Part shown: one piece after another, positions 1,425 through 16,074 of the stretch
How positions within the stretch are numbered: the first letter of the stretch is position 1
Layout of the letters: each line of letters starts with the position of its first letter
Origin: Psychrosphaera sp. B3R10
GTDB lineage: Bacteria; Pseudomonadota; Gammaproteobacteria; Enterobacterales; Alteromonadaceae
Assembly: GCF_018861025.1 (NCBI RefSeq)
Contig: NZ_JAHKQH010000044.1
Span: forward strand, 62,389 to 126,388
DNA: 64,000 nucleotides
Direction: 5' to 3'
Translations under genes and position numbers: made by a program
The notes under the pieces: generated by a model
What the model was told of the DNA's origin: nothing
The model's database searches: none
The model's input: the letters and a program-made list of their open reading frames with translations, nothing else

Positions 1425-1436
1425 TATGTGTCACTT
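1425..1436 (+). promoter_or_regulatory. Upstream motif shared with the GH50 gene
   Basis: TATGTGTCACTT lies 97 bases before the GH16 start; TATGTGTCATTT lies at 11729-11740, 60 bases before the preferred GH50 start. Eleven of twelve positions agree. These are the two genes of the locus that encode exported depolymerases and that seem to have their own promoter regions. It could be part of a binding site for the locus sigma factor or another regulator, or chance in AT-rich DNA. Confidence 0.2.
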
Positions 1437-1521
1437 CATTTTTCCAAAAACAATACCTATTAATTAACGCAAATATGGCCTTCAAATTTTTGGTCATCAA
1501 CTGTCAATTAAAGGTATAAAA

Positions 1522-2814
1522 ATGAAAAAGTGCATATTGCTGCAGACTTCCATCGTTTTATTTAGCTTATTATCTGTAGCGTCAGCGAGCGCTGAAACCA
1601 CTAACAAGACAACTCCTACTCCAGAGATGATTGATTTAACTCAGTGGCAACTCGCGTGGAGCGATGAATTTGAATACCCTAATAGCCAGTTAGACCAAAA
1701 CTGGATTTCACAAAACGGTCCTACAGAGAATGCTTGGGTTTTAAGCAGTCGTTGGCGAGATAACGCCGTCGTAAAAGATGGTGTTTTGCATTTGATGAGT
1801 AAAAAAGAAAACCGCGGTGGGCAAGAATGGACAACCGGTAATATCTGGTCCAAACGTGCTTTTCATTATGGCTATTATGAAGCCCGCTATAAATACGCCG
1901 GAGCCTATGGTACCAATAACTCATTTTGGTTTTGGCCAAAACAAGGTGTTGCTGAAGGCGAAAAAGCCTGTGAAATTGACATTAATGAAGGTCACTACCC
2001 AAACGTTATGAACACAAATGTTCACAATTGGACTGATACTTATACCCTGCCAAATGGCCGCGTAACGCATTCGGATAATCAATTACACCACACGTTGATG
2101 GGTCAGCCCGATCATACAATCGCTTTAAGAAATACGATCAAAACAAAAAAAATACGTTTACGTTCTCAAAATCCAGCATCAATTCATATTAATGAATTCA
2201 GAGTTTTTGCCCCTTCTTCAAGTGGCTACCCTAATGCTTTTGACGAAAAACAAATGACAACCGTAACCAATTTGGCGTTGGCCGAAGACGTTTCGTTAGT
2301 AACTAACGGCATATACTCACGACTTGTATCCAAAGAAGAATTCGCCATAGACGACAGAATTGACACTCGTTGGGTCTCCGAAAAACACGGTGATAAGTTT
2401 ATTGAGTTGAGCTGGGAGCAGGAAAAAAGCATTGGCGCAATTCAGTTTATAAATGGCTGGTTACAGGAATCTGGTCCTTCAAAAGGTTTTTATCGCAACT
2501 TGATCACTGACTATCAAATTGACTATTACGATGGCAATAAATGGGTTGAAATTGCTAACTACGACGCTGCGAATGTCGCCGACTTTTCTGAGGAATATCA
2601 TACTTATGGGTTAGCTTGGGATAAAGATTATTTCAAATTTTACCTAGACGGCAAGTTATACCACACCATGCGTAACGAGGTGTGCTTCAGTGAAACAACC
2701 ATGTTGTTCAGTCTAGCCATACTAAAAGCAGCAATTGCAGGTCCTGTAAGCGATGATATTGACGGCACAAGTATGGCAATTGACTGGGTTCGCTATCACA
2801 CAAAAAAACCTTAA
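1522..2814 (+). CDS. Secreted GH16 glycoside hydrolase with an inserted discoidin-like domain
   Basis: Likely endo-acting beta-galactanase (agarase or porphyranase type) attacking algal galactan outside the cytoplasm. Residues 1-24 are a signal peptide (hydrophobic core, SASA cut) with no lipobox. GH16 begins near residue 40 (LAWSDEFEYPN) and the catalytic motif EIDINE is at 151-156 (nucleophile E151, acid/base E156). Residues 356-430 (HTYGLAWDKDYFKFYLDG, then SMAIDWVRYH) are the last part of the same GH16 jelly roll. Between them sit about 190 extra residues: 197-230 resemble the end of an F5/8-type C (CBM32-like) domain, and 248-350 resemble its beginning, so the order is inverted (see findings). 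It starts the agar locus; AAGG lies a few bases before the ATG. Substrate is inferred from the GH117 and GH50 neighbours, not from the sequence alone. Confidence 0.85.
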   Translation: MKKCILLQTSIVLFSLLSVASASAETTNKTTPTPEMIDLTQWQLAWSDEFEYPNSQLDQNWISQNGPTENAWVLSSRWRDNAVVKDGVLHLMSKKENRGGQEWTTGNIWSKRAFHYGYYEARYKYAGAYGTNNSFWFWPKQGVAEGEKACEIDINEGHYPNVMNTNVHNWTDTYTLPNGRVTHSDNQLHHTLMGQPDHTIALRNTIKTKKIRLRSQNPASIHINEFRVFAPSSSGYPNAFDEKQMTTVTNLALAEDVSLVTNGIYSRLVSKEEFAIDDRIDTRWVSEKHGDKFIELSWEQEKSIGAIQFINGWLQESGPSKGFYRNLITDYQIDYYDGNKWVEIANYDAANVADFSEEYHTYGLAWDKDYFKFYLDGKLYHTMRNEVCFSETTMLFSLAILKAAIAGPVSDDIDGTSMAIDWVRYHTKKP

Positions 2815-2869: not shown

Positions 2870-4585
2870 ATGAATATTATCGATATTAGTGTGATTTTAC
2901 TGTTTACCTTGTTAGTAGTGGGTTGCGGTTTAAGCTTTTCGAGCTCAGGAAAAAATATGAAAAGCTTCTTCTCAGCAGGTGGCGCGCTACCTTGGTGGAT
3001 GAGTGGCTTATCACTGTTTATGAGCTTTTTCTCAGCGGGGACGTTCGTCGTTTGGGGCTCAATTGCCTATAAACATGGTTGGGTGGCCGTCACTATCCAA
3101 TGGACCATGTGTATCGCAGGCTTAATTATCGGCTTTTTTATCGCGCCCAAATGGCAAAAAACCAGAGTATTAACCGCCGCCGAGTTTATTAAAGATCGCT
3201 TGGGCATTAAGGTACAAAAAGTGTACACCTACATTTTTTTAGCCATCGCAAGCTTTTCTACCGGTGCATTTTTATATCCGGTTGCCAAAATTGTAGAGGT
3301 CTCTACTGGGTTATCAATAGAACATACCATAATCGCTTTAGGTATCTTAATTTTACTGTATACAGCGATTGGCGGGCTTTGGGCGGTAATCGTCACCGAC
3401 ATTCTACAGTTTGTGGTACTAACCGCCGCTGTCTTAATTGTGGTGCCACTTTCATTAGATAAAATTGGTGGACTTGGTAACTTTGTAGATAAAGCGCCTG
3501 AGGGATTTTTTGCCTTAACTAATAGCGAATATTCATGGGGATTCATTTTTGCCTTTGGTCTATACAATCTCTTTTTTATTGCGGGTAACTGGGCTTATAT
3601 TCAACGATTTACAAGTGTAGATAAACCAAAAGACGCAAAAAAAGTTGGCTGGTTATTTGGCGGCTTATATCTCATAAGTCCAGTAGTTTGGATGATAGCC
3701 CCAATGATTTACCGTGCACTAAATCCTGAACTCGCCGGCTTCGAAAACGAAGGTGCTTATTTGTTAATGAGTAAAGAAGTTCTACCAATTGGAATGTTGG
3801 GTCTAATGCTTGGCGCGATGATTTTTGCCACATCTAGCTCAATCAATACCTCACTAAATATTGCCGCCGGTGTTATTACTAATGATGTTTTTAAACACTT
3901 CAAACCAAATGCATCTCAAAAAACACTGGTAAAGGTTGGAAGAACAGCTACGGGCTTGTTGGGCATAATCACCATTATTGTTGCCTTATTAATACCTTAT
4001 ATGGGCGGCGTAGTTGAAGTAGTAATGACTATGGCGGCTTTAACGGGTGGTGCATTATTTTTACCGCCTATTTGGCTATTGTTCTCACGCTACCAAACAG
4101 GCGCTAGTATTTTAACGACAACAATTGTGTCATTAGCCGTAAATGGTTTCTTTAAGTTCATCAGTCCTGAATTTCTGTCAGTGTCGTTAGACCGTGCTCA
4201 AGAAATGATGTTAGGCGTTGGTTTACCTGTAATTATATTGGCGGTTTTTGAGCTTGTTTTACGAGCTCGAAAGCAACAAGCACCACTTTATCAAGCCTAT
4301 GTAGAAGCAACAGCTGCCAGAACAGTTGCCGCAGAACTTGTCTCTAATGAACAACATAATTCTGACAATACAAAGGGCATTAAAGTAATTGGATTTGGTA
4401 TCACAGCAATAGGGGCGATTATGCTTTCCCTTGCATTTATTGCCGACAAAGGACAAATAGTCGTGGCCACCATGGGCGCAATTATTTTTGCTATAGGTTT
4501 AGCGATCTTTTTTGTTTGCCGAACAAAACCACTCCAATCAAGCCCTAAAGATGACAATGACACTTTATTTAACAGAGGCTCCTAG
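2870..4585 (+). CDS. Sodium:solute symporter (SSS family), probable sugar importer
   Basis: Inner-membrane transporter of the sodium/solute symporter (SLC5-like) family, 571 residues. The first helix is at residues 3-22, and the segment after it (SSSGKNMKSFFSAGGALPWW) is the characteristic SSS loop. Many further hydrophobic segments follow, consistent with 13-15 membrane spans, and the protein ends in a charged tail. In agar loci such symporters are placed to import galactose, neoagarobiose or anhydrogalactose; the exact substrate cannot be read from the sequence. It lies 55 bases after GH16 and 101 bases before the GH117-like gene, all on the same strand. A Shine-Dalgarno-like AAAGGAA sits upstream; the ATG at 2865 is followed at once by a stop, which fixes the start at 2870. 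Confidence 0.88.
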   Translation: MNIIDISVILLFTLLVVGCGLSFSSSGKNMKSFFSAGGALPWWMSGLSLFMSFFSAGTFVVWGSIAYKHGWVAVTIQWTMCIAGLIIGFFIAPKWQKTRVLTAAEFIKDRLGIKVQKVYTYIFLAIASFSTGAFLYPVAKIVEVSTGLSIEHTIIALGILILLYTAIGGLWAVIVTDILQFVVLTAAVLIVVPLSLDKIGGLGNFVDKAPEGFFALTNSEYSWGFIFAFGLYNLFFIAGNWAYIQRFTSVDKPKDAKKVGWLFGGLYLISPVVWMIAPMIYRALNPELAGFENEGAYLLMSKEVLPIGMLGLMLGAMIFATSSSINTSLNIAAGVITNDVFKHFKPNASQKTLVKVGRTATGLLGIITIIVALLIPYMGGVVEVVMTMAALTGGALFLPPIWLLFSRYQTGASILTTTIVSLAVNGFFKFISPEFLSVSLDRAQEMMLGVGLPVIILAVFELVLRARKQQAPLYQAYVEATAARTVAAELVSNEQHNSDNTKGIKVIGFGITAIGAIMLSLAFIADKGQIVVATMGAIIFAIGLAIFFVCRTKPLQSSPKDDNDTLFNRGS

Positions 4586-4686: not shown

Positions 4687-5907
4687 ATGAACATGACGAA
4701 TAAATATGACACTAAAGGGTTCCCTTGGCATCTACCGCCAACGCGCCCAAACCGAGACTTGAGTCAAGCTATGGAACGACTTTATAGCAAATACCCGACT
4801 CCGAGACCGGAAGACAACCCGTTATTCACAAGCTTTAAATATACCGAAATTGAAGGCTTTGATTATGGTAACCGAGACGGCAAAATCTCTCGTCGTGACC
4901 CATCCAAAATTATTTGTGAAAACGGCCGTTATTATATTTGGTACACCAAGCGAAATACGATATCTCCGCCTCGCGGGGCGGACTTATGCACCGATGAAAT
5001 TCCATCAATGGACTGGGACTTAAGTGAAGTTTGGTATGCAACGAGTGAAGACGGGTTTACCTGGCAAGAACAAGGTGTTGCTGTGCCACGTCCCAAAAAG
5101 CCGGCTTTAGGTTGGCGCGCGGTGTGCACACCAGACATTTTAGTTTGGAAAGGTAAATATTACTTATATTATCAAGCCTTTGAAGAAGCTAGTGGAACCA
5201 AAGGCGACAACTGTCCTGTGACGGTTTCTTATGCCGACTCCCCCGATGGTCCTTGGACCCCCTGCAATCACATTGTGGTGGAAAATGGCCCTGAAGGAGA
5301 CTGGGATCAATATTCCATTCACGGCCCTTACCCTATGGTCGTCAACAATCAAATTTACCTTTATTACAAAGCCGCGTTAGGGGTTCGTCCTGACTATTTA
5401 GTCGGTAACGGGTTAGCCATTGCGGATGATCCTCTTGGGCCATTTACCAAGCACCCCCTCAATCCGATATTAAATTCGGGCCACGAAACAACCGTATTTC
5501 GGTTTGGTAAAGGCATTGCCGCTTTTTCTATTCGTAATGGCATTGAAGCCAATACAATTCAATACTCTGAAGATGGCGTAAATTTTGATATTGCTGCCGT
5601 CACCTCCTTAATGCCTGTTGGCGCAGGACCTTTTATTCCTGACATATTCACCAGTGAAGGTGATGGCCAAGGCTTTACTTGGGGGTTGTCGCATTTTTGT
5701 GATCATAAAGCGGTTGATACAAAGTTTAGCTTTTTAGGTCGATTCGACTGTGATTTACAGAACAAAATGCCACGTTCTCAGGTCGCTAATAATACCGATG
5801 TTATTCATGACCCAAGTGTCTTTTTTGCCCAGGGACTGAGCGACGAAATACGTAATGAACGCATGGTTGCCGCTAAAAACATTGCCCGAAGCAGTGCCCG
5901 CAGTTAG
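4687..5907 (+). CDS. GH117-like enzyme, probable alpha-1,3-(3,6-anhydro)galactosidase
   Basis: Five-bladed propeller hydrolase of the GH117 type, which in agar users releases 3,6-anhydro-L-galactose from neoagarobiose. It has no signal peptide, so it should act in the cytoplasm on imported disaccharide. Visible family signatures are SRRDPSKI (catalytic-base Asp at residue 71), repeated blade motifs (NGRYYIWYTKR, KGKYYLYYQAF, NNQIYLYYKA), and the His-Glu pair H266-E267 (GHETTVFRF), which matches the H302/E303 pair described for Bacteroides GH117. At 211-216 the sequence is IHGPYP, where an Asp would be expected in place of Gly213; this may weaken or alter activity (see findings). The substrate could differ from the classical one. 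The neighbouring symporter and the GH50 agarase support a role in agar use. Confidence 0.8.
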   Translation: MNMTNKYDTKGFPWHLPPTRPNRDLSQAMERLYSKYPTPRPEDNPLFTSFKYTEIEGFDYGNRDGKISRRDPSKIICENGRYYIWYTKRNTISPPRGADLCTDEIPSMDWDLSEVWYATSEDGFTWQEQGVAVPRPKKPALGWRAVCTPDILVWKGKYYLYYQAFEEASGTKGDNCPVTVSYADSPDGPWTPCNHIVVENGPEGDWDQYSIHGPYPMVVNNQIYLYYKAALGVRPDYLVGNGLAIADDPLGPFTKHPLNPILNSGHETTVFRFGKGIAAFSIRNGIEANTIQYSEDGVNFDIAAVTSLMPVGAGPFIPDIFTSEGDGQGFTWGLSHFCDHKAVDTKFSFLGRFDCDLQNKMPRSQVANNTDVIHDPSVFFAQGLSDEIRNERMVAAKNIARSSARS

Positions 5908-5937: not shown

Positions 5938-8223
5938 ATGATAAAAGAAAATTTCAGTACAGCTTCGCGTAAAAACAAAACAATTGAACTCAATACCCAA
6001 TTTGTTATCGCAGGCGGTGGACTTGCAGGCACATGTGCGGCGATTACCGCGGCCCGTGCTGGTCGCAAAGTGATACTTGTTCAAGACCGCCCCGTTTTAG
6101 GTGGTAATGCCTCAAGTGAAGTCCGACTGTGGGCATTAGGCGCAACGTCACATATGGGAAACAATAACCGTTGGTCGCGTGAAGGCGGGGTTATTGATGA
6201 AATAATGTTAGACAACATGAAGGTCAATTCTCAAGGTAACCCGCTCATTTTTGATGCTTTATTATTAGATAAAGTCGTGGCGGAAAAAAATATCAACTTA
6301 TTACTCAATACTGCTGTTTTTCAAGTTAATAAATCCGATGACACGACTATTTCTAGTATTGAAGCTTTTTGCAGTCAAAACTCAACCCATTATGTAATTG
6401 CAGCCCCCTTATTTTGTGACGCAACTGGCGACGGTTTAGTTGCCTTTAATGCTGGTGCTGCATTCCGCATTGGCGCCGAATCTAAGGATGAGTTTAACGA
6501 ACAACTGGCATCTGATGAAGCGAATAACGAATTACTTGGGCATACTCTATTTTTTTACAGCAAAAAAGCCGGTAAACCGGTGAGTTATAAAGCTCCGGCG
6601 TTTGCTTATACACAGGAAGAAATCGGCGCTATCCCACGCTGTAAAGATATACATGGTACTGATTCGGGTTGTAAATTCTGGTGGATAGAATTTGGTGGAA
6701 TTCGCGACACAATTTATGAAACAGAAGAGATAAAATGGGAACTATGGAAAATTGTTTACGGTATCTGGGATTACATTAAAAATAGCGGTAAGTTTGAGGA
6801 TGTTGATGACTTAACATTAGAGTGGGTTGGCACAGTACCGGGCAAACGAGAAAGCCGTCGTTTCGAAGGTAAGTACATGCTTAAGCAACAGGACATTGTT
6901 GAGCAAACCCAGTTTGATGACGCCGTATCCTATGGCGGGTGGGCCATAGACATTCACCCTGCAGAAGGAATTTATAGTAACCGCCCTGCGTGCTCACAAT
7001 TTCATTCTAAAGGAGTTTACCAAATTCCCTATCGTAGTTTTGTGAGCCGTGATATCGACAACTTATTTCTTGCGGGTCGTATTATAAGTGCGACACACAT
7101 GGCTTTTGGTTCAACACGAGTCATGATCACTTGCGCGCATGGCGGACAAGCCGTAGGTGAAGCCGCTGCAATGTGTAGCGAATTATCGTTACAACCCAAA
7201 GCACTTCTAACCTCAGACAAGATGCAAACGTTGCAGCAACGACTTAATTCATTTGGTCATGGAATTCCTGGAATTGCACTAGACAAATCACTCAATCTTG
7301 CCACTTTGGCAGACGTTAAAGCTAGCAGTGAACTTGCATTGAGTGGATACGAAAACAGTGGTGAAACCGTTTCGTTAGCGCAATCTGTCGCACAATTATT
7401 ACCGTTTAATAACGGCCCTGCACCAAAAGTAACTATTCAATTAATTGCCAAGCAAGCCACTGAACTTACCTGTCAACTTAGAGTGAGTTCTAAAGCTGAA
7501 AACTATACCCCCGATGTCACTCTCAAAACGATTATTCTCCCTGTACTAAAAGGAAAACAATCACTCAGTTTTGATTTTTCTGATGTAGTCACGCTTGAGC
7601 AATATGGTTTCATTTGTTTTTTAGCAAATGATGACATTGAGCTTGCGAACTCTACTCAGCGAGTGACAGGCACTATGCCAGTATTTAACAAGGTTCATAA
7701 AGCAGTTTCGAACAATGGTAAACAAACAGCGCCTGTTAATAGCGGTATCGACGAATTCGAATTTTGGACGCCCGAACGCCGCCCCAAGGGACAAAACTTA
7801 GCACTGACATTCACTCCAGCACTTAACTCATTTTCGGTAAGTAATGTGCTTAACGGCCATTTAAGACCTTGGTTAAGCAGTAATGCCTGGGTAGCTAACT
7901 GGCAAGACAAACAGCCAAGCTTGTGTTTTACTTGGCCATCAGAAACCACGATTTCAACTGTTACTTTGTTTTTTGATACTGACTCAGACCATGCATTAGA
8001 AACCGTATTAATGGAGCATTCTGAAAACCAAATGCCTTATTGTGTAACAAGTTACCGACTGAAACTAGCCGACGGCACATTATTAGCCGAGGTATCCGAT
8101 AATTATCAAACAGTAAATAAAATTGTATTGCCAATGCCTGTAACAACAAAGCAATTAATTATTGAAATAGATCATCCATCTGCTGATGTTCCGGCATCGT
8201 TATTTGAAGTTCAAATTAATTAA
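5938..8223 (+). CDS. FAD-dependent oxidoreductase with C-terminal beta domain
   Basis: A 761-residue cytoplasmic protein (no signal peptide) whose first 430 residues form an FAD-dependent oxidoreductase of the PF12831 kind. The dinucleotide-binding motif is VIAGGGLAGTCAA near residue 24, followed by the family's VLGGNASSEVRL segment. FLAGRIISATHMAFGSTRV, near residue 380, is a second conserved FAD-family block. Residues from about 500 onward are beta-rich and resemble a discoidin or other sugar-binding-like fold. The gene starts 30 bases after the GH117-like stop and ends 27 bases before the lipoprotein gene, so co-transcription is likely. Members of this family are common in Planctomycetes and Verrucomicrobia carbohydrate loci, but the reaction is not known to me. 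Oxidation of an agar sugar is a guess from context. Confidence 0.75.
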   Translation: MIKENFSTASRKNKTIELNTQFVIAGGGLAGTCAAITAARAGRKVILVQDRPVLGGNASSEVRLWALGATSHMGNNNRWSREGGVIDEIMLDNMKVNSQGNPLIFDALLLDKVVAEKNINLLLNTAVFQVNKSDDTTISSIEAFCSQNSTHYVIAAPLFCDATGDGLVAFNAGAAFRIGAESKDEFNEQLASDEANNELLGHTLFFYSKKAGKPVSYKAPAFAYTQEEIGAIPRCKDIHGTDSGCKFWWIEFGGIRDTIYETEEIKWELWKIVYGIWDYIKNSGKFEDVDDLTLEWVGTVPGKRESRRFEGKYMLKQQDIVEQTQFDDAVSYGGWAIDIHPAEGIYSNRPACSQFHSKGVYQIPYRSFVSRDIDNLFLAGRIISATHMAFGSTRVMITCAHGGQAVGEAAAMCSELSLQPKALLTSDKMQTLQQRLNSFGHGIPGIALDKSLNLATLADVKASSELALSGYENSGETVSLAQSVAQLLPFNNGPAPKVTIQLIAKQATELTCQLRVSSKAENYTPDVTLKTIILPVLKGKQSLSFDFSDVVTLEQYGFICFLANDDIELANSTQRVTGTMPVFNKVHKAVSNNGKQTAPVNSGIDEFEFWTPERRPKGQNLALTFTPALNSFSVSNVLNGHLRPWLSSNAWVANWQDKQPSLCFTWPSETTISTVTLFFDTDSDHALETVLMEHSENQMPYCVTSYRLKLADGTLLAEVSDNYQTVNKIVLPMPVTTKQLIIEIDHPSADVPASLFEVQIN

Positions 8224-8250
8224 TACCAGAACAAAAAAGGAAGATAACTA

Positions 8251-9474
8251 ATGAACAAGGGTTTACGGATAGCTCGAAATTTAAATAAAGTCGCCAAAAA
8301 TATAATACGACCATTTATTATGGCCACCTGTGCGATATCACTAGCAAGTTGCCACCCCCCATCTTTGTCTGAAGGTAAATTGCTAAGCTCTAATTTAATT
8401 GAAAGCACTGATTTAATGGAAAAAACGACAGACAAAGATTACTTTCTCGTCGGTGGCTATAATAAAAATCCAGATGATGGTATTTCTTTAGTATCTTATA
8501 ATTCAACTACAAACCGATTAGTAAATGAAAAAGTCGTAGCGAACACCTTGAACCCGAGTTATTTAAATTGGCAACAAAAGCAAAAAACACTCTACAGTAT
8601 TGCAACAACAGCTGATAAATCTCCACTATTGCAAGTGTACCAATGGCAAAAAGCCAAGAAACAATTTTATCTGGTGCATTCTCAAGAGGTTTTAGGTAAA
8701 GGTATTTGTCATGTTAACGTGAATCAAGACCAATCTCAGCTTGCCATCGTAAATTACACCAGTGGCGAAAGTTCGTTTTACGCATTGAAATCCCCTTCTG
8801 CACAGCCCAGTTTAATTGGCCATTTCAAAAACTATGGACATAGTAAAACCAAAAGACAAAAAAGTGCACATCTACATTACGCCGGTTGGGGCAACCAAAA
8901 CCGCTACGTGTATTTAACGGATTTAGGGACCGATGAGATAATCGTATTCGATAGCCTAGCAACAAAGATTGAACCCAAATTTAGAATTAAACTCACACCG
9001 GGCGACGGTCCTAGGCATCTTGCGTTTCATCCAACTAAAAACACTGTTTATAGCCTAAATGAACTAAGTAATAGTATTACCGTTTTTACGCAAAACGAGA
9101 ATACCGGCAACTTAACCTTTGTCGATAAGGTCATGTTATTCAACGAGAATGTTAATACCAAAAATACAATTGCTTCAGCAATACGAGTGACTCAAGACGG
9201 AAAATATTTATACACGGCCTCTCGTGGAGAAAACATGATTTATGGGTTTGCTATTCAGGCGAATGGCCAGCTTAAATTTGTTAATAAAGTCAGCTCAGGG
9301 GGCGAACACCCGCGAGATTTTAACTTTTCCTCTAACCAAAGCTATTTACTAGTAGCAAACCAACACGCTAATCAAATTAATTTAGTCAAAAGAGATACAG
9401 AAACCGGTCAGCTAACATTAACTGAAATATCCACAGTAATTAATAACCCCTCTTTTATCCAAGCGTTTAATTAA
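8251..9474 (+). CDS. Lipoprotein with lactonase-type seven-bladed beta-propeller
   Basis: 407 residues. A long basic N-terminus and hydrophobic stretch end in a lipobox (SLASC near residue 35), so the mature protein should be a membrane-anchored lipoprotein outside the cytoplasm. The rest is a beta-propeller of the 6-phosphogluconolactonase/YbhE-like family (PF10282): GDGPRHLAFHPTKNTVYSLN, near residue 251, and SGGEHPRDFNFSSN are its typical blade motifs. Relatives hydrolyse lactones or are annotated as cycloisomerases; being exported, a phosphogluconolactonase role is unlikely. AAAAAAGGAAG gives a good Shine-Dalgarno. Placed directly after the FAD oxidoreductase, it might open a lactone formed from an oxidised sugar, or simply bind oligosaccharide. 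Both are inference. Confidence 0.72.
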   Translation: MNKGLRIARNLNKVAKNIIRPFIMATCAISLASCHPPSLSEGKLLSSNLIESTDLMEKTTDKDYFLVGGYNKNPDDGISLVSYNSTTNRLVNEKVVANTLNPSYLNWQQKQKTLYSIATTADKSPLLQVYQWQKAKKQFYLVHSQEVLGKGICHVNVNQDQSQLAIVNYTSGESSFYALKSPSAQPSLIGHFKNYGHSKTKRQKSAHLHYAGWGNQNRYVYLTDLGTDEIIVFDSLATKIEPKFRIKLTPGDGPRHLAFHPTKNTVYSLNELSNSITVFTQNENTGNLTFVDKVMLFNENVNTKNTIASAIRVTQDGKYLYTASRGENMIYGFAIQANGQLKFVNKVSSGGEHPRDFNFSSNQSYLLVANQHANQINLVKRDTETGQLTLTEISTVINNPSFIQAFN

Positions 9475-9511
9475 AGTGGATACTATCGATGCTAATGAAG
9501 TATAAAAAACG

Positions 9512-10066
9512 ATGAACGAAAAAGACGACCAGCAGCTTATTGAACTCACTAAAGCTGGTGAAATTGAAGCCTATTCAGTTTTAGTGCAACGCTACGAGTC
9601 GTCTGTGCGCGCCTGTTTACGAGTGCGATTAAGTAATTATCATGAAGCAGAAGATTTGGCACAGGAAACCTTCATGTTAGCTTACAAGAAGATAAATGAC
9701 TTTCGACTCGATGGTTCTTTAGGGGCTTGGTTACGAGGTATTGCGATTAATTTACTCCGTAATCATCAACGTAAACATAAAGCCCTTTCTGTTGGTGGTA
9801 ATAACGAACTAGAACTCTTAATTAATAAACAAATAGAGGATAATTTTGAGACTGAGAATGAGTCACCATTATTGATCAATTTAAAAGAGTGTCTTAAGAA
9901 ACTTGATGATAAAATGAATCTACTCTTAACTGAACATTACATTTTAGGACATTCGTTAGCTGAACTTTGTCGAAAATATGACGATAAACACTCAACGATG
10001 ACCATGCGTATGTACCGCTTAAAACAGAAGATTAAAAACTGTGTTGAGAAAAAGGTTGAGGAATAA
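9512..10066 (+). CDS. ECF-type sigma factor
   Basis: 184-residue sigma-70 family protein with only regions 2 and 4. Region 2 covers about residues 22-90 (YHEAEDLAQETFMLAYKK, then GAWLRGIAINLLRNHQRK) and region 4 about 125-178 (KLDDKMNLLLTEHYILGHS, then a helix-turn-helix with HSTMTMRMYRLKQKIK). It would direct RNA polymerase to a small set of promoters, plausibly those of the agar locus. The stop is followed after only 3 bases by the FecR-LamG gene, the usual layout of a sigma factor with its membrane anti-sigma. Its length and style resemble the sigma factors that accompany LamG proteins in Planctomycetes and Verrucomicrobia more than the FecI of proteobacterial iron systems. The Shine-Dalgarno is weak. 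Confidence 0.85.
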   Translation: MNEKDDQQLIELTKAGEIEAYSVLVQRYESSVRACLRVRLSNYHEAEDLAQETFMLAYKKINDFRLDGSLGAWLRGIAINLLRNHQRKHKALSVGGNNELELLINKQIEDNFETENESPLLINLKECLKKLDDKMNLLLTEHYILGHSLAELCRKYDDKHSTMTMRMYRLKQKIKNCVEKKVEE

Positions 10067-10069
10067 GAC

Positions 10070-11671
10070 ATGAGTGATTCAAAATCATTGTCTATTGAAC
10101 AAGAAAAATTAATTGCCGCTTATCTAGCAGGTGAAGATGTCAATGAGTTGCTTCTACTCGCATGCAAAGTAGACCCCGACCTTTTAAAAGAAGTCAGTCG
10201 ATATGTTGCCAACGATAGACTATTAAGCGCTGAATTTGACTCATTATATCAATCGTCCCACTTTACACGTGAAGTGATTGCTCGCATTGATCCCCTCCCT
10301 CAAACATCCATTACGCAACAAGTCAGTAGGAAGTTATTTGAGCAAGAAGCTGCCAATAGTTGGTTTAATAAACCTTGGGTTATGGCAGCAAGTATCGCGA
10401 GCTTTGTCTGTGTCTTATTTATTTCCAGTTTTATTAACAACCATGCCGACTTTGCCCAAGTCACAAAAATAACCGCAACATCCGTCTCAGATACCGAGCT
10501 TAAATTGGGTAACTACTTTGGTCGCGGAGACATAGAACTGACTCAGGGTTTTAGTGAGATCACCTTAAACAATGGCGTTGTATTAATTTTAGAAGCCCCA
10601 ATTAAACTTAACTTAAAATCTTCAGAACAAGTTGTTGTTCATCAAGGAAAACTTGTTGCCCGGGTTCCCAAAAATGCAATTGGTTTTCGTATCGATACAC
10701 CTAGCAGTGAAATTATCGACTTAGGCACTGAGTTTGGTGTTGATGTTAATAAAGATGGAGAATCGCAAGTTCATGTTATTAACGGCGAAGTGAAAGCGCG
10801 TGCAAATAAGTCACAACGTTACAAACTGGTAAAAAAAGACCAAGCCTTAGCCTTCAACTTAAAACATGAAGTGGCAAGTATTAAAAGCGAATCAGCCGAT
10901 TTTATGCGCGTATTGCCAGGTGAATCTATGCAAAACCCTGACTTTTTACATTGGAGTTTTGATAATGGTTCCGCTGCGGGCTTTCCTTCTACCGGTAAAG
11001 GCGTAAATGGTAAACATTATTTGGCGGTAGATAAATCCCTATCAAATACTAAAACAGCAAAAATTAACGGCCGTTTTGGTCAAGGATTATATTTTGACGG
11101 CGAAACAAATTGGTTAGAAACCGATTTTGCCGGTATCGGTAGCGATCACCCTCGTACAGTGGCTTTTTGGCTTAAAGTGCCTTCAGATTTTTCAACTAAC
11201 AAAGCGTATGGCATCGTTAGTTGGGGATTACATGCAAATTATGCTGCGTGGCAAATTTCTCCAAATCCGGAGTTGATTGATGGTCCTTTAGGTCGTCTTC
11301 GCGTTGGTACTTATAAAGCACAAGTCGTTGGCACAACGGACTTGCGTGATGACCAGTGGCACCATATTGCGGTAGTGGTTTATGGCGGTGAAAATTCCAA
11401 CATTTCCACTCACGTATTGTTATATGTAGATGGAAAATTAGAAAAAACCCAACAAAAATCGATTGCCAAGCTCAATACCCAACTGCAAGACCCATTATCC
11501 AGTCCGTTAAGTATTGGCAGAAACATTGCTCACAGCAAAGGCATAGAGCCATTAAAACAAGGTTTTTTCAAAGGTGGTGTAGATGAGCTTTTTGTTTATG
11601 AAGCCGCACTTGAACAGCAACAAATTCAACAATTAATGGAAAAAAATACATTGCTTAACCCAGCGAATTAA
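10070..11671 (+). CDS. Membrane anti-sigma-like protein with FecR and LamG domains
   Basis: 533 residues. About 100 N-terminal residues are cytoplasmic and could hold the sigma factor. One membrane helix lies near 101-122 (WVMAASIASFVCVLFISSF). A periplasmic FecR domain follows (about 140-260; GFRIDTPSSEIIDLGTEFGV, then VHVINGEVKA). A LamG/concanavalin-like domain fills about 293-525 (LHWSFDNG, GQGLYFDGETNWLET, TVAFWLKVP, WHHIAVVVYGG, LYVDGKLE). LamG folds often bind sugars. The architecture suggests a one-protein sensor: a sugar bound outside releases or activates the sigma factor encoded 3 bases upstream. No STN-bearing TonB receptor, the usual partner of FecR, is seen in the window. The gene ends before a clear terminator, so sigma and anti-sigma end the upstream unit and GH50 is transcribed separately. 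Confidence 0.82.
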   Translation: MSDSKSLSIEQEKLIAAYLAGEDVNELLLLACKVDPDLLKEVSRYVANDRLLSAEFDSLYQSSHFTREVIARIDPLPQTSITQQVSRKLFEQEAANSWFNKPWVMAASIASFVCVLFISSFINNHADFAQVTKITATSVSDTELKLGNYFGRGDIELTQGFSEITLNNGVVLILEAPIKLNLKSSEQVVVHQGKLVARVPKNAIGFRIDTPSSEIIDLGTEFGVDVNKDGESQVHVINGEVKARANKSQRYKLVKKDQALAFNLKHEVASIKSESADFMRVLPGESMQNPDFLHWSFDNGSAAGFPSTGKGVNGKHYLAVDKSLSNTKTAKINGRFGQGLYFDGETNWLETDFAGIGSDHPRTVAFWLKVPSDFSTNKAYGIVSWGLHANYAAWQISPNPELIDGPLGRLRVGTYKAQVVGTTDLRDDQWHHIAVVVYGGENSNISTHVLLYVDGKLEKTQQKSIAKLNTQLQDPLSSPLSIGRNIAHSKGIEPLKQGFFKGGVDELFVYEAALEQQQIQQLMEKNTLLNPAN

Positions 11672-11681
11672 TTAGCGACAG

Positions 11682-11712
11682 TCGCTGCTTTATTTCTGCA
11701 GCGAACTTTTTT
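11682..11712 (+). terminator. Rho-independent terminator after FecR-LamG gene
   Basis: TCGCTGC (11682-11688) pairs with GCAGCGA (11698-11704) around a 9-nt loop and is followed by ACTTTTTTGA. It lies 11 bases after the stop codon and separates the upstream genes from GH50. Confidence 0.75.
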
Positions 11713-11788
11713 GATTAATTTTTAGTTTTATGTGTCATTTGTATCGACTGACAACAACTTAATATATTGCTTTCATGAGGAATATATT

Positions 11789-14164
11789 TTGAATAAACCT
11801 ACGACTATTACTGAAAAAATACTAAAAATAATATTTGTAAAAAAACCAGACTTTAGAATATCAATCATTGCGCCATTTATGTTGTTTGCACTTGTGGCGT
11901 GTGGTTCTCAAAACCTAGATGATGACCGAAAAAAAACAACACAAGCCAAGCACATACTTGTTACTGACTTTAATAACACAACGGTGCCAAGTTATATTAA
12001 ACCGTTTGACGCAAAAACAGAGCTTGTTGAGCTAAGTCATAACAATAACGCGCTAAATATTAAATTTTCCACAAAACATAGCAGCTCCGGCATAACCATA
12101 ATACCTGACCTGCCGTGGTCAACATCAGAGCTAGGCAACAATGCCTTTATGGTTGATGTTTACAACAATGGTAAATACGCGACGATGTTATCAACTAACA
12201 TCACAGGTATGACTCAAAAAACACAACGTAGAACAGTTGCAATAGACGCCGGTGAAACAGTTACCTTATATTTTGAGCTCGAAGGATTTGAATTAGATCA
12301 CGATACAGGGTTACGGGATACACCGCCTTCGTTTATAACATCCGCCCGAAAAATGCCCATTAGAGGCAGTAAAGAAATCATTGATTTTTCGCAGGTCTAC
12401 GCAATCAAGATATATACAGAAACGCAAATCAATCCCACGGAGGTGACCATTGATAATCTGCGTTTTGAAGCGACAGGCACACCAAACAAGCAATATGTTA
12501 CGCACATCGTAGACAAGTTTGGTCAACGCGCCGATATTGATTTTGACCTCAAAGTCTCTTCCACAGAAGAACTTAAACGCCTAGCTGATGAAGAACGAGC
12601 ACAATTAAAACGCTCTGAAGGGTGGCCTGGACGAAGTCAGTTTGGTGGTTGGAAAGAAGGTGAAAAATTCAAAGCCACGGGATTTTTCCGTACTCAAAAA
12701 GTCGGTGATAAATGGTCGTTAATAGACCCAGAGGGTTATTTGTATTTCTCATCAGGCATTGCCAATTCAAGAATGTCGAACACATCGACCTTCACCGGCA
12801 TTGATTATAAAGATGACTCAGTTCGTTTTATTGACCCCTTAGATGTCACGCCAGAAGATTCACAGGGTATTAGTGGCAATTATCGTAACGCCCAAAAGAC
12901 AAGCTATGTTGCCAATCAACAACGTCATAACATGTTTGAATGGTTTCCAAGCTACGACGATGAGTTAGCAAATCATTACGGCTATCGTCGAAAAGCGCAC
13001 AAAGGCCCGATGGAACACGGGGAAGTGTACAGTTTTTATCAAGCCAATTTAGAGCGTAGATATGGTGAAAAAACGGAACAGTCTTATTTAATAGATTGGC
13101 ACGACATCACGCTAGACCGTATGGTCGATTGGGGATTTACATCGTTTGGTAATTGGACCGACCCAATGTTTTATGACAACACTAAAATGCCCTATTTTGC
13201 CAACGGATGGATTATTGGTGAATTTAAAACTCTAAGCTCTGGTTTTGATATTTGGGGTAAAATGCCTGATCCATTCGATCCTGAGTTTGTACGTAGAGCA
13301 AAAATAACCACCGAAGTCATAGCAAAAGAAGTAAATGATAGCCCTTGGTGTGTTGGCGTCTTTATCGATAACGAAATGAGCTGGGGCGGCGCTGCACCAG
13401 CTATTAGACGCTACGGTATCGTCTTTGATGCATTATCAAAATCGGTGGACGAAAGCCCGGCCAAAACCGTATTTGTAAAAATGCTCAAAGACAAATATAA
13501 AAAGATCTCTGCATTGAATATCGCCTGGGATAAAAATATAAAATCCTGGCAGGAACTAGCCCAAGGGGTTAATTACAAAAAAGACGCGTCTTACAACAAG
13601 ACATTAACTAATGACGTATCTTGGTTGCTACAAACCTATGCAGATGAGTACTTTAAAGTTGTCAGAACCGCTGTAAAAGAAGTAATGCCAAATCACATGT
13701 ATATGGGTGCGCGTTTTACAACGTGGGGCACTGCACCTGAAGCAAGAGATGCGGCTAAAAAATATGCCGATGTCGTGAGTTACAATTATTATCGTGAAGG
13801 TATAGATGAAATGACATGGGGCTTCTTAGAAGCGTTAGATGCACCAGTCATCATTGGCGAGTTTCACATTGGCTCTACCGATGTAGGTCACCCAAATCCA
13901 GGAATAATACATGCGCCTAATCAAAAAGTTCGGGCAGATATGTTTAAAACTTATATGAACTCAGCGATTGATAATCCCTACATCATAGGCGCACATTGGT
14001 TTCAATATATTGATGCGCCTTTAACCGGACGAGCCCACGACGGTGAAAACTATAACGTTGGATTTGTAACAATCACGGATATACCATTTCCCGATTTGGT
14101 CGACGCAGCCAAGGACGTACATAAAAACCTATATCAACGTCGTTACCTAAACAAACCGCAGTAA
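11789..14164 (+). CDS. GH50 beta-agarase, lipoprotein
   Basis: Exo-type beta-agarases of GH50 release neoagarobiose from agarose and its oligosaccharides. I chose TTG at 11789 as the start: TGAGGA lies 8-9 bases before it, and it places a lipobox (ALVAC, Cys38) at a normal distance; a GTG at 11732 is the longer alternative. From the TTG the protein has 791 residues. About 45-230 form an N-terminal beta-sandwich, carbohydrate-binding-like; the rest is a TIM barrel. The catalytic pair is visible as IDNEMSWGG (acid/base near E529) and VIIGEFHIGS (nucleophile near E691), close in position to E534 and E695 described for Saccharophagus Aga50D. Being a lipoprotein, it should be anchored in the outer membrane or periplasm. 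It lies after a terminator, so it probably has its own promoter. Confidence 0.9.
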   Translation: MNKPTTITEKILKIIFVKKPDFRISIIAPFMLFALVACGSQNLDDDRKKTTQAKHILVTDFNNTTVPSYIKPFDAKTELVELSHNNNALNIKFSTKHSSSGITIIPDLPWSTSELGNNAFMVDVYNNGKYATMLSTNITGMTQKTQRRTVAIDAGETVTLYFELEGFELDHDTGLRDTPPSFITSARKMPIRGSKEIIDFSQVYAIKIYTETQINPTEVTIDNLRFEATGTPNKQYVTHIVDKFGQRADIDFDLKVSSTEELKRLADEERAQLKRSEGWPGRSQFGGWKEGEKFKATGFFRTQKVGDKWSLIDPEGYLYFSSGIANSRMSNTSTFTGIDYKDDSVRFIDPLDVTPEDSQGISGNYRNAQKTSYVANQQRHNMFEWFPSYDDELANHYGYRRKAHKGPMEHGEVYSFYQANLERRYGEKTEQSYLIDWHDITLDRMVDWGFTSFGNWTDPMFYDNTKMPYFANGWIIGEFKTLSSGFDIWGKMPDPFDPEFVRRAKITTEVIAKEVNDSPWCVGVFIDNEMSWGGAAPAIRRYGIVFDALSKSVDESPAKTVFVKMLKDKYKKISALNIAWDKNIKSWQELAQGVNYKKDASYNKTLTNDVSWLLQTYADEYFKVVRTAVKEVMPNHMYMGARFTTWGTAPEARDAAKKYADVVSYNYYREGIDEMTWGFLEALDAPVIIGEFHIGSTDVGHPNPGIIHAPNQKVRADMFKTYMNSAIDNPYIIGAHWFQYIDAPLTGRAHDGENYNVGFVTITDIPFPDLVDAAKDVHKNLYQRRYLNKPQ

Positions 14165-14179
14165 ACCCCATAATGACCC

Positions 14180-14201
14180 GGCCTAAATCTAGATTTAGGC
14201 C
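14180..14201 (+). terminator. Perfect 22-bp palindrome after GH50
   Basis: A fully symmetric palindrome with half-site GGCCTAAATCT lies 15 bases after the GH50 stop, followed by CTCAAAAAA. It can form a strong stem, but the tract after it is A-rich instead of T-rich, so it is more likely a 3'-end stability element or a bidirectional, inefficient terminator. Confidence 0.45.
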
Positions 14202-14533
14202 CTCAAAAAATGTATTTTCTCCGCTCCAAACAGCTTTATGTAATTGGCGAAATTACATCATTGTTGTTGACATATAACATCGAAAATTAGTGGACAGTAA
14301 ATTAGTTGAGTCACTCGTTTAGGCATAAAGAACGGTGATAATACCCGGTGATTCTAAACCGGTGTTCGTTTCAGAACTGGAACTAGAACATCAGCGACCA
14401 GTCAGTCAAATACTTTCTACAGAATATCGAAAATGAAGCGCAGGCTAAGATTTAAGAAAATCTAGGAGTTGTTATGGCGAGTTGCACAAACTCAAATATG
14501 CTTGGTTTTAGATTATTTTATCTTCAGAAAGCA
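14202..14533. other. Gene-free stretch between GH50 and tRNA-Ser
   Basis: No intact gene is seen. It holds an 8-bp inverted repeat (ATGTAATT at 14238-14245, AATTACAT at 14251-14258). A short plus-strand frame after GTG at about 14332 (VIIPGDSKPVFVSELELE, ending after 33 codons) and a shifted frame with one stop (ENEAQAKI, stop, ENLGVVMASCTN) might be remains of a decayed gene. I do not recognise the family. Confidence 0.3.
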
Positions 14534-14565
14534 AAAACCCGTTAATCTCTCGATTAACGGGTTTT
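14534..14565 (-). terminator. Terminator of tRNA-Ser
   Basis: A 13-bp perfect stem (AAAACCCGTTAAT at 14534-14546, ATTAACGGGTTTT at 14553-14565, 6-nt loop) sits 8 bases beyond the CCA end of tRNA-Ser. On the minus strand the right arm runs into a T-tract, as in a rho-independent terminator. Confidence 0.85.
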
Positions 14566-14573
14566 CTAAATAA

Positions 14574-14665
14574 TGGCGGAGAGAGAGGGATTCGAACCCT
14601 CGTTAGGTTTTACCCTAAACACACTTTCCAGGCGTGCGCCTTCAGCCACTCAGCCACCTCTCCGC
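14574..14665 (-). tRNA. tRNA-Ser (anticodon GGA)
   Basis: 92 nt, class II tRNA with encoded CCA. On the minus strand it begins GCGGAGAGGTGGCTGAGTGG, has the anticodon loop CTGGAAA with anticodon GGA, a long variable arm (TTTAGGGTAAAACCTAA region) and the T-arm GGTTCGAATCC. It reads serine codons UCC and UCU. Confidence 0.96.
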
Positions 14666-14687
14666 ATTGCTTTTTTAAAGCCGCGCC

Positions 14688-14716
14688 ATACTATTGAATT
14701 ACGCGGCTTTCTGCAA
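14688..14716 (-). promoter_or_regulatory. Promoter of tRNA-Ser
   Basis: On the minus strand TTGCAG (14716-14711), a 17-bp spacer and TAGTAT (14693-14688) are followed by the GC-rich discriminator GGCGCGGC, the pattern of stringently controlled stable-RNA promoters. Start of transcription would be near 14681, 16 bases before the tRNA. A 9-bp inverted repeat (AAAGCCGCG / CGCGGCTTT, 14677-14685 and 14702-14710) overlaps it. Confidence 0.65.
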
Positions 14717-14767
14717 GCCTATTTATTGATACCACCTGCTAGTTGGTGATAATTCAACCGAATAGGC
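14717..14767 (-). terminator. Nested hairpin at the 3' end of nadA
   Basis: GCCTATT (14717-14723) and AATAGGC (14761-14767, touching the nadA stop) form an outer stem enclosing an inner stem of ATACCACC-type and GGTGATA-type arms. No T-tract follows. Probably the nadA transcript end or a stability structure. Confidence 0.4.
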
Positions 14768-15822
14768 TAAGCGTTACCTTTAACTTTTACTTTGTTGTCA
14801 GCGGCAAAATTGAGCATTCTAGTCAGTGGGATCATCGCTTTTTCAGCTAATGTTTCATCGACAAAAACTTCGTGACCGACAACGTTAACCAATGCTTCCT
14901 CTAACGCTTTAAGACCGTTCATTGCCATCCACGGACAGTGTGCACAACTTTTACATGTTGCGCCGTTACCAGCCGTTGGAGCTTCTATAAACGTCTTGCC
15001 TGGGTTAGCTTGTTGCATCTTATAAAAAATGCCACGATCAGTCGCGACAATAAAAGTATCATTGCTCATTTCTGTAGAAGATTTGATTAACTGTGATGTA
15101 GATCCGACGGCGTCTGCCATCGCAACAACAGATGCTGGCGATTCTGGGTGAACTAATATCGCAGCGTCAGGATATACATTTTTAAGATCGGCTAACGCTT
15201 TTGACGAAAATTCGTCGTGAACGATACATTCCCCATCCCACAACAGCATATTAGCGCCGGTTTGATTATTGATATAACTGCCCAAATGGCGATCAGGCCC
15301 CCAAATGATTGGTTTACCTTCAGCCTCTAGGTGGTCAATAACTTCAAGTGCGATACTCGATGTTACAACCCAATCGGCACGTGCTTTAACCGCCGCAGAG
15401 GTATTTGCATAAACAACGACTGTATGGTCAGGATGAGCGTCACAAAACGCAGAGAAACGGTCAACAGGACACCCCAAATCTAAAGAACAAGTCGCTTCTA
15501 ATGTTGGCATCAACACTGTTTTTTCTGGGGTTAGGATTTTTGCCGTTTCGCCCATAAATTTAACGCCAGCGACCAATAAGGTTTTTGCTTCGTGCTGATT
15601 GCCAAAACGTGCCATTTCCAATGAATCGGCAACACAACCGCCGGTTTCTTCGGCAAGAGCTTGAATTTCAGGATCGGTATAATAATGGGCGACAAGTACT
15701 GCATTTTTTTCAATCAATAACTGCTTGATGCGATCTTTATAAGCTTGTTGCTCGCTATCATTAAGAGGTATTGGTTTTGCAGGAAATGGGTAATCTTGTT
15801 TAACGGCTTTTGCTAGGCTCAT
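14767..15822 (-). CDS. nadA: Quinolinate synthase NadA
   Basis: Condenses iminoaspartate with dihydroxyacetone phosphate to quinolinate, the second step of de novo NAD synthesis, in the cytoplasm, using a 4Fe-4S cluster. The protein matches NadA throughout: [11 protein letters not shown] near residue 38, [13 protein letters not shown] and [13 protein letters not shown] containing the cluster-type cysteines. I chose the ATG at 15822 (351 residues, starting [17 protein letters not shown]), because it aligns with the E. coli start; the frame is open 32 codons further upstream, but that extension has no family likeness. Single gene between tRNA-Ser and the tRNA-Lys cluster; no clear Shine-Dalgarno is seen. 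Confidence 0.95.
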
Positions 15823-16074
15823 ATCTAATTTATTTAAGCTAAAAAATCTTCGAATAATTATACAGGACTGAGTTCTAATGTCACTCAATTGGCAAAGTGA
15901 ACACTGTGCAAAATGCAAATAACATATTTCTGCAACTTTTTGTTTATCGACTAAAAGTTTACAGAAGCCTGAACAGCGTCTACTGCAATGTAAATTTCAA
16001 TGCCTTTCTAATTATAGTTAGAAGCTTAATTGAGTTTCTAATCCAAAATAGAAGAACCATATCGATGATTTTCA
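15823..16074. other. AT-rich upstream region of nadA
   Basis: No gene is supported. A short plus-strand open frame here (15897-16085) has no homology-like features. The nadA promoter should lie here on the minus strand, but I cannot pick a convincing -35/-10 pair. Confidence 0.4.

Follow-up and report, generated by a model that had tools for sequence, protein, structure and literature searches.

A predicted sigma/anti-sigma switch with a FecR-LamG membrane partner in an agar locus of Psychrosphaera sp. B3R10

Classical FecR proteins work together with a TonB-dependent receptor that bears a signaling domain. The agar locus analyzed here lies in a 64,000-nucleotide stretch of Psychrosphaera sp. 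B3R10 (contig NZ_JAHKQH010000044.1, positions 62,389 to 126,388; hereafter, the window) and contains a gene pair that resembles FecI/FecR/FecA (and PupI/PupR/PupB) in that an extracytoplasmic function (ECF) sigma factor adjoins a protein that has a single membrane helix and, in the periplasm, a FecR domain. Unlike those systems, the window partner carries a LamG domain and has no FecR_C match, the pair adjoins no TonB receptor with an STN domain, and the sigma factor is nearest to TIGR02989. In the available part of a study of PupR (PMC9249621), the signaling domain of PupB binds two periplasmic subdomains of this FecR-like protein. The second PupR-type subdomain seems to be replaced in the window protein.

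In the Bacteroides ECF/anti-sigma systems with SusC/D, TonB-dependent transporters also relay the signal. These systems resemble the window pair in that an ECF pair controls polysaccharide loci and differ from it in that TonB-dependent transporters are regulated there, according to the available sections of a 2024 review (PMC10766802). Those sections cover polysaccharide-related ECF/anti-sigma systems in Bacteroides, Cytophaga, and Clostridium, none of which has the build of the window pair. If our reading is right, SigI/RsgI of Clostridium thermocellum is comparable in that the anti-sigma factor is itself the substrate sensor and governs genes for polysaccharide degradation (excerpts of PMC12203970 and PMC10766802); the RsgI factors sense substrates, are cut by RseP, and are degraded by ClpXP (excerpt of PMC12203970). 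The window pair differs from SigI/RsgI in its sigma family and domains, in its Gram-negative periplasm, and in its FecR domain and LamG sensor. The TIGR02989 sigma factors with FecR partners in Planctomycetes and Verrucomicrobia share with it the best-scoring model, the gene order, and the LamG type (in Lentisphaera, Akkermansiaceae, and Kiritimatiellae), whereas the window sigma factor falls under the cut-off of that model and the spacer of the window-type promoter motif is mostly 16, not 15, bases. An anti-sigma factor with its own glycan-type sensor is a known kind of regulator, and the build described here would be a new form of that kind. Among the papers listed by our literature search, none was recognizable as a description of such a FecR-LamG sigma pair from an agar locus; an earlier naming of the sigma group of Planctomycetes-Verrucomicrobia-Chlamydiae (PVC) bacteria is possible.

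The window pair probably acts as a sigma/anti-sigma switch across the membrane and governs the agar operon. The link between sigma factor and locus is well supported at the sequence level, through synteny and a shared promoter-like motif, and it is plausible that the LamG domain itself binds an agar oligosaccharide. The motif was found by eye in upstream regions set side by side and consists of GTGTCA, 16 bases, and ACAA, usually with AT before it. There are two exact TGTGTCA-N16-ACAA sites in the window against 0.03 expected, and none of 100 shuffles had two; with one mismatch allowed, the four sites in the window do not significantly exceed the 1.71 expected. A scan with the sigma-70 consensus (31 matches versus 37.1 in shuffles) did no better than chance. 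The motif lies 5' of the GH16 gene in all 10 agar-type loci, three of which carry variants (GTGTCG in L038, Gayadomonas; N15 in G372; ACAT in Agaribacter). Across 20 stretches of the sigma clade (347,562 bases; 60 shuffles), the N16 form occurs 15 times versus 1.33 in shuffles (largest, 3) and the N15 form 9 times versus 1.27 (largest, 4), while other spacers from 10 to 23 gave 0 to 4 sites. Neither form was found in 16 control loci (280,047 bases), an absence that says little alone because just 0.82 N16 and 0.72 N15 sites are expected there.

Spacer length tends to follow the sigma clade in these comparisons, with the N15 GH16 site of the agar-type G372 as an exception. In the PVC group, GTGTCA-N15-ACAA stands 5' of the sigma gene in five of seven loci (L059, L067, L176, L177 with ACCA, and L178; L059 and L176 are close kin). 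In a small separate PVC group, L180 has an N16 site within the called sigma frame, which is probably overlong, and L182 has none. L041, L042, and L058 carry an N15 motif with ACAC or ACAT. In the related pairs L049 and L051, the motif sites end in ACCAAT or ACAAT, and L049 lies beside a sulfatase and a GH50 gene.

Agarase genes provided a gene-linked comparison, which was used because raw genome-wide motif counts distinguish poorly between genomes that have the pair and those that lack it. About 550 bases upstream could be compared for 57 of 61 Agarase_CBM genes from 10 genomes with the pair and for 40 of 71 from 20 genomes without a close pair. The strict motif precedes nine of the 57 in the sense orientation and none in the antisense orientation, versus none of the 40. 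Each of the 10 genomes with the pair has one motif-bearing agarase, strict in nine; in the tenth, Agaribacter, the locus agarase has a variant ending in ACAC, and looser matches at two other agarases of that genome are taken as chance. In Catenovulum sediminis, G113, C. agarivorans DS-2, and strain 2E275, the motif-bearing agarase is not at the sigma locus but at distances that range from about 14 kb to a place on a different contig, and when anonymous intergenic motif sites were looked up in C. sediminis and G113, two of three preceded agarases. The motif-bearing enzymes, which we take to be GH50 (Pfam gives Agarase_CBM, just as it gives GH43 for the enzyme that we presume to be GH117), form two separate lineages, one with the window, Agaribacter, G372, and Gayadomonas and one with Catenovulum, the latter including C. 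sediminis as a 421-residue open frame. In the midpoint-rooted tree, six Catenovulum GH50 genes that are nearer to the first lineage have no motif. The Psychrosphaera genome contains five exact motif sites, of which only the two of this locus are intergenic and three lie within genes; the copy at C47:66083-66109 (L097), where a rhamnosidase-like gene encodes its signal-peptide region, is taken as chance.

The original prediction had proposed looking for the sigma and FecR-LamG order beside GH16, GH117, and GH50 genes, and this order does occur in other genomes. The same sigma/anti-sigma pair closes a GH16-symporter-GH117-FAD operon in related genera and in one other family; the operon order is complete in Agaribacter, Catenovulum, and G372 and shortened in Gayadomonas, and G113 has no called FAD gene. 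Non-agar members adjoin sulfatases, GH97, or FAD oxidoreductases. Within the family, 12 of 295 genomes match at an E value of ≤1e-10, 10 of them being of the close type (both counts include the genome itself), and none of the seven other genomes listed for the genus match. At 1e-60, matches were found in 3 of 394 genomes of an order sample, one of them from another family at 60% identity, and in 10 of 288 genomes of the phylum of Lentisphaera marina, including L. marina. A scan of genome contigs yielded 41 loci, of which L052 to L068 have the LamG type of the window and the other 24 match mainly over FecR. The LamG type occurs in Catenovulum, Agaribacter, Gayadomonas (a record titled plasmid pG7), Colwellia, and a Pseudomonadales metagenome-assembled genome, as well as in Lentisphaera, Akkermansiaceae, Kiritimatiellae, and other Verrucomicrobia. 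It is thus not mainly gammaproteobacterial, and its patchy spread together with the PVC relatives suggests horizontal transfer.

The window sigma factor matches Sigma70_r2 (2.2e-13) and sigma70-ECF (8.2e-19) among the Pfam and NCBIfam profiles. Its top NCBIfam model is TIGR02989, at 107.9 bits, below the curated cut-off of 124.55, which is passed by the Lentisphaera relative (128.5) and by a second pair in the same genome (131.1); neither a FecI-type nor a SigI-type model is among the best 25 of 77 models. The two FecI-like sigma factors of the genome have TIGR02985 as their best model and are placed apart from the window sigma factor in a 34-row sigma tree. This tree groups the agar type (seven rows; 95/96), the PVC group (seven rows; 83/96), L041-L042-L058 (96/93), the pair with another sensor (100/100), and the type of the second pair (98/99). 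A FecR-type partner adjoining the sigma factor is a property of the window pair and its relatives and is not part of the definition of TIGR02989.

In the partner, FecR (residues 162 to 242; PF04773, 2.3e-8) and Laminin_G_3 (residues 344 to 520; 6.2e-14) are above the Pfam cut-offs, and a single strong hydrophobic stretch lies at about residues 103 to 122. No Pfam anti-sigma domain was matched, nor was the RsgI N-terminal domain among Pfam and NCBIfam profiles. An AlphaFold2 model from an 18-row alignment (mean pLDDT, 79.1) has helices at 9 to 95 within the cytoplasmic part (1 to 95), a helix at 103 to 124, and LamG at about 290 to 530; because its pTM is 0.53, the domain arrangement is unreliable and the single domains are usable. 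In a Foldseek search with this model, the top three matches are whole chains of the arabinanase AbnA, and the best single-domain match is AbnA domain 4 (5hon; TM score of 0.71 of the target, root mean square deviation of 4.5, 20% identity), whose ligand is, as we presume, an arabino-oligosaccharide. The 5hon match appears to cover the LamG part and to agree with a weak sequence-to-structure match; the search of the PDB by sequence gave two weak matches. Another Foldseek match, 4m0h, is a putative anti-sigma factor of Parabacteroides and presumably corresponds to the FecR part, and many others are lectin-like jelly rolls in large proteins, a likeness at fold level only.

Among 20 LamG loci, distances in the cytoplasmic part correlate with those of the sigma factor at r = 0.81, followed by LamG (0.77) and FecR (0.62), coefficients given without a permutation test; with two non-LamG loci added, the values are 0.78, 0.55, and 0.53, respectively. 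That the cytoplasmic part tracks the sigma factor best, though it is least conserved, would be expected of a sigma-binding part. LamG is the best-conserved region over the 20 loci, and among the members of the agar clade FecR and LamG do not differ (63% identity for both). The agar clade has 16 positions that never vary within it and are rare outside it, and LamG holds nine of these, including Y391, Y415, Q418, Q429, and S443. A further set of LamG residues (W394, Q395, N399, P400, D427, W430, H431, H432, G439, G440, T447, and H448) is invariant in agar-type loci, in loci that contain sulfatase or GH97 genes, and in the PVC phyla. In L049 and L051, which lie beside sulfatases or a GH50 gene, the partner has no LamG match, and in that of L051 a CBM_4_9-like part (1.1e-4, below the cut-off) occupies the place of LamG. 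This apparent swap between LamG and a CBM-like part fits exchangeable glycan sensors.

Several observations weigh against a sigma/anti-sigma switch of this kind. The case rests on sequence comparison and models, the model of the partner reaches a pTM of just 0.53, and many LamG residues are common to agar and non-agar loci. The first motif counts are not independent because the motif was first spotted in part of the same sequences, the Fisher p value of 0.006 for the agarase comparison is optimistic because the rows are related, and the control locus L182 belongs, by the later sigma tree, to the wider motif clade. The motif is not specific genome-wide: there are 32 exact sites in the 20 genomes without a close pair and 30 in eight genomes with the pair, 15 of these 30 being flagged intragenic (at least one flag, at the L129 agarase site, is due to a miscalled start). 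It is absent directly 5' of the sigma gene in three of nine PVC loci (L062, L064, and L182), and the third intergenic site looked up precedes an NHL-repeat gene. Finally, 47 of the 57 agarases in genomes with the pair have no motif, including the other three of this genome, and therefore the switch would control a core of the agarases and not all of them.

In the mechanism that we propose, the cytoplasmic helical part of the 533-residue protein would hold the sigma factor when substrate is absent. Agar oligosaccharides released by the secreted GH16 enzyme would reach the periplasm and be sensed there by LamG or by a partner acting on the anti-sigma protein; the FecR domain would relay the change across the membrane, and the sigma factor would be freed, perhaps through proteolysis. 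As the comparison of upstream regions suggests, free sigma factor would bring RNA polymerase to TGTGTCA-N16-ACAA promoters, one for GH16-symporter-GH117-FAD-lactonase-sigma-anti-sigma and one for GH50. Because the sigma and anti-sigma genes sit in the operon of the first promoter, the switch would feed itself. A TonB-dependent transducer would not be required.

Control of the pair by an STN-bearing TonB receptor encoded elsewhere in the genome is extremely improbable. The idea has in its favor that a FecR domain is present and that, in the available part of PMC9249621, the periplasmic part of PupR/FecR binds the signaling domain of a receptor. The genome (4.74 Mb, 48 contigs) has nine FecR and three STN matches, none of the three STN matches being on the contig of the window. 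One of these is a TonB receptor directly 3' of its own FecI and FecR and two are secretins, and the other classical FecI-FecR pair has a receptor of its own behind it, in which Plug (2.9e-15) but not STN is called. FecR_C is found in both classical FecR proteins (27.7 and 23.8 bits; cut-off, 24.4), whereas the window partner has no match to it at an E value of 0.01 and has LamG at that place. The classical system is thus present in this genome, and the window pair is built differently. In this survey, which covered Pfam-called STN only, no STN-type TonB receptor was linked to the pair and no spare one was found, inside or outside the window, so that the pair stands without a TonB transducer as originally predicted; a TonB transducer was rejected as the controlling element. 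It is very improbable that another regulator uses TGTGTCA-N16-ACAA as its operator or promoter and that the sigma pair is a passenger. Sigma factor and motif are linked by comparison of sequences only, which leaves room for such a passenger, but the motif accompanies the sigma clade in several phyla, its spacer tends to shift with the clade, the agarase motifs are all in the sense orientation, and the ACAA forms are absent from the control loci.

A more serious, if still unlikely, alternative keeps the sigma factor and promoters as described and has LamG read another ligand, such as an envelope glycan, another galactan shared by many loci, or a partner protein in the periplasm, e.g., a lipoprotein encoded in the locus. 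The LamG residues that are invariant across agar, sulfatase or GH97, and PVC loci would suit such a ligand, as would the small number of agar-clade-specific positions in the protein (just 16), whereas the CBM-like part that replaces LamG in the sister pair by sulfatases (one with a GH50 gene) fits glycan sensing. RseA is an inhibitor of its sigma factor, and the N termini of relatives of the partner match RseA_N below the cut-off (L049, 0.00046; L051, 0.0058; L059, 0.0071). These matches, and the confinement of the FecR likeness to the periplasmic FecR domain, make it distinctly unlikely that sigma activity depends on the partner in a FecR-like pro-sigma role, the signal switching the complex on, even though the N-terminal 59 residues of E. 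coli FecR are essential for ECF activity in the available part of PMC7406223.

The features of the locus are collected in Table 1. The seven genes from GH16 to the anti-sigma gene are codirectional with gaps of 3 to 101 bases, and GH50 follows after the hairpin. Open reading frames, Pfam, and hydrophobicity agree with the predicted arrangement of an ECF sigma factor followed, after 3 bases, by a one-helix protein with FecR and LamG. A terminator-separated promoter of its own for GH50 had likewise been predicted, and a hairpin with a T run and then the predicted promoter motif are found there; a simple hairpin scan marks a smaller hairpin at 11673 to 11687. The GH50 start given by the mechanical call, GTG 11732, falls within the promoter-like motif, and the start was therefore moved to TTG 11789, which stands in frame behind GAGGAAT, is likely the better-fitting start, and yields the lipoprotein-like leader.

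Table 1. Coordinates of the agar locus features, counted from the first base of the window
Feature	Position	Strand	Basis
Promoter-like motif TGTGTCA-N16-ACAA upstream of the GH16 operon	1427..1453	+	Exact pattern match
GH16 enzyme, first gene of the operon, signal-peptide-like N terminus	1522..2814	+	PF00722
Sodium:solute symporter (SSS)	2870..4585	+	PF00474
GH43-like enzyme (GH117 in the original prediction)	4687..5907	+	PF04616
FAD-dependent oxidoreductase (FAD_oxidored)	5938..8223	+	PF12831
Lactonase-type beta-propeller, lipoprotein-like N terminus	8251..9474	+	PF10282
ECF sigma factor, 184 aa, nearest TIGR02989 (Rhodopirellula/Verrucomicrobium)	9512..10066	+	
Anti-sigma-like membrane protein, 533 aa; FecR and LamG	10070..11671	+	
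Terminator-like hairpin with T run, 3' of the anti-sigma gene and 5' of GH50	11682..11712	+	z -2.9
Promoter-like motif TGTGTCA-N16-ACAA upstream of GH50	11731..11757	+	Exact match; upstream regions compared
GH50-type agarase, lipoprotein-like leader, likely start TTG 11789	11789..14164	+	PF17992 Agarase_CBM

Among the other products of the operon, the C-terminal part of the symporter weakly matches DUF6249 (2.2e-5, under the cut-off), and FAD_oxidored is retained in most agar-type loci read and has relatives in some PVC loci. The lactonase-type lipoprotein gene lies directly 5' of the sigma gene here, in Agaribacter, and in G372 and is not found in the Catenovulum loci read; its product is a possible candidate for a periplasmic partner. 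Proteins of about 810 residues are encoded 3' of PVC pairs (L059:11653-14085 and L176:4665-7088), with an N15 motif near their starts. They have no Pfam match (at 1e-5 for the L059 protein), and the L059 protein has no PDB match either; they may be novel glycan-active enzymes.

The second sigma and FecR-LamG pair of this genome lies on contig C13 (L046, C13:1-18000), at 7055 to 15874 on the minus strand, after MFS, HXXSHH, and planctomycete-cytochrome-type (PSD/PSCyt) genes, in a gammaproteobacterium. Four of the six loci of this type have an exact GAAACA-N15-ACAAT, and TGAAACA-N15-ACAAT has a single exact site in the 4.7-Mb genome, about 77 bases 5' of the L046 operon; the reversed control pattern has two matches. 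Given their differing -35 elements, the two pairs of this cell should stay separate.

To our knowledge, the sensing of algal polysaccharides by marine bacteria outside Bacteroidetes is poorly understood. We regard it as possible, though a little short of probable, that such pairs are transferable one-piece polysaccharide sensors shared by PVC-type bacteria and marine gammaproteobacteria, in which TIGR02989-like sigma factors are combined with anti-sigma proteins whose outer domain (LamG, CBM-like, or others) is swapped by locus and reads the glycan directly. They would use a clade-specific promoter code (TGTGTCA-N16-ACAA, GTGTCA-N15-ACAA, or TGAAACA-N15-ACAAT), with two GH50 lineages under the same promoter. 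The window pair is compact and brings with it a predicted promoter, a strict regulon predicted to comprise two transcripts in this genome, and a candidate sensor domain. Should the promoter code hold true, the regulons of other uncharacterized FecR-type sigma pairs in Planctomycetes and Verrucomicrobia would become predictable, and a cell whose two pairs use different promoters would provide separate induction parts.

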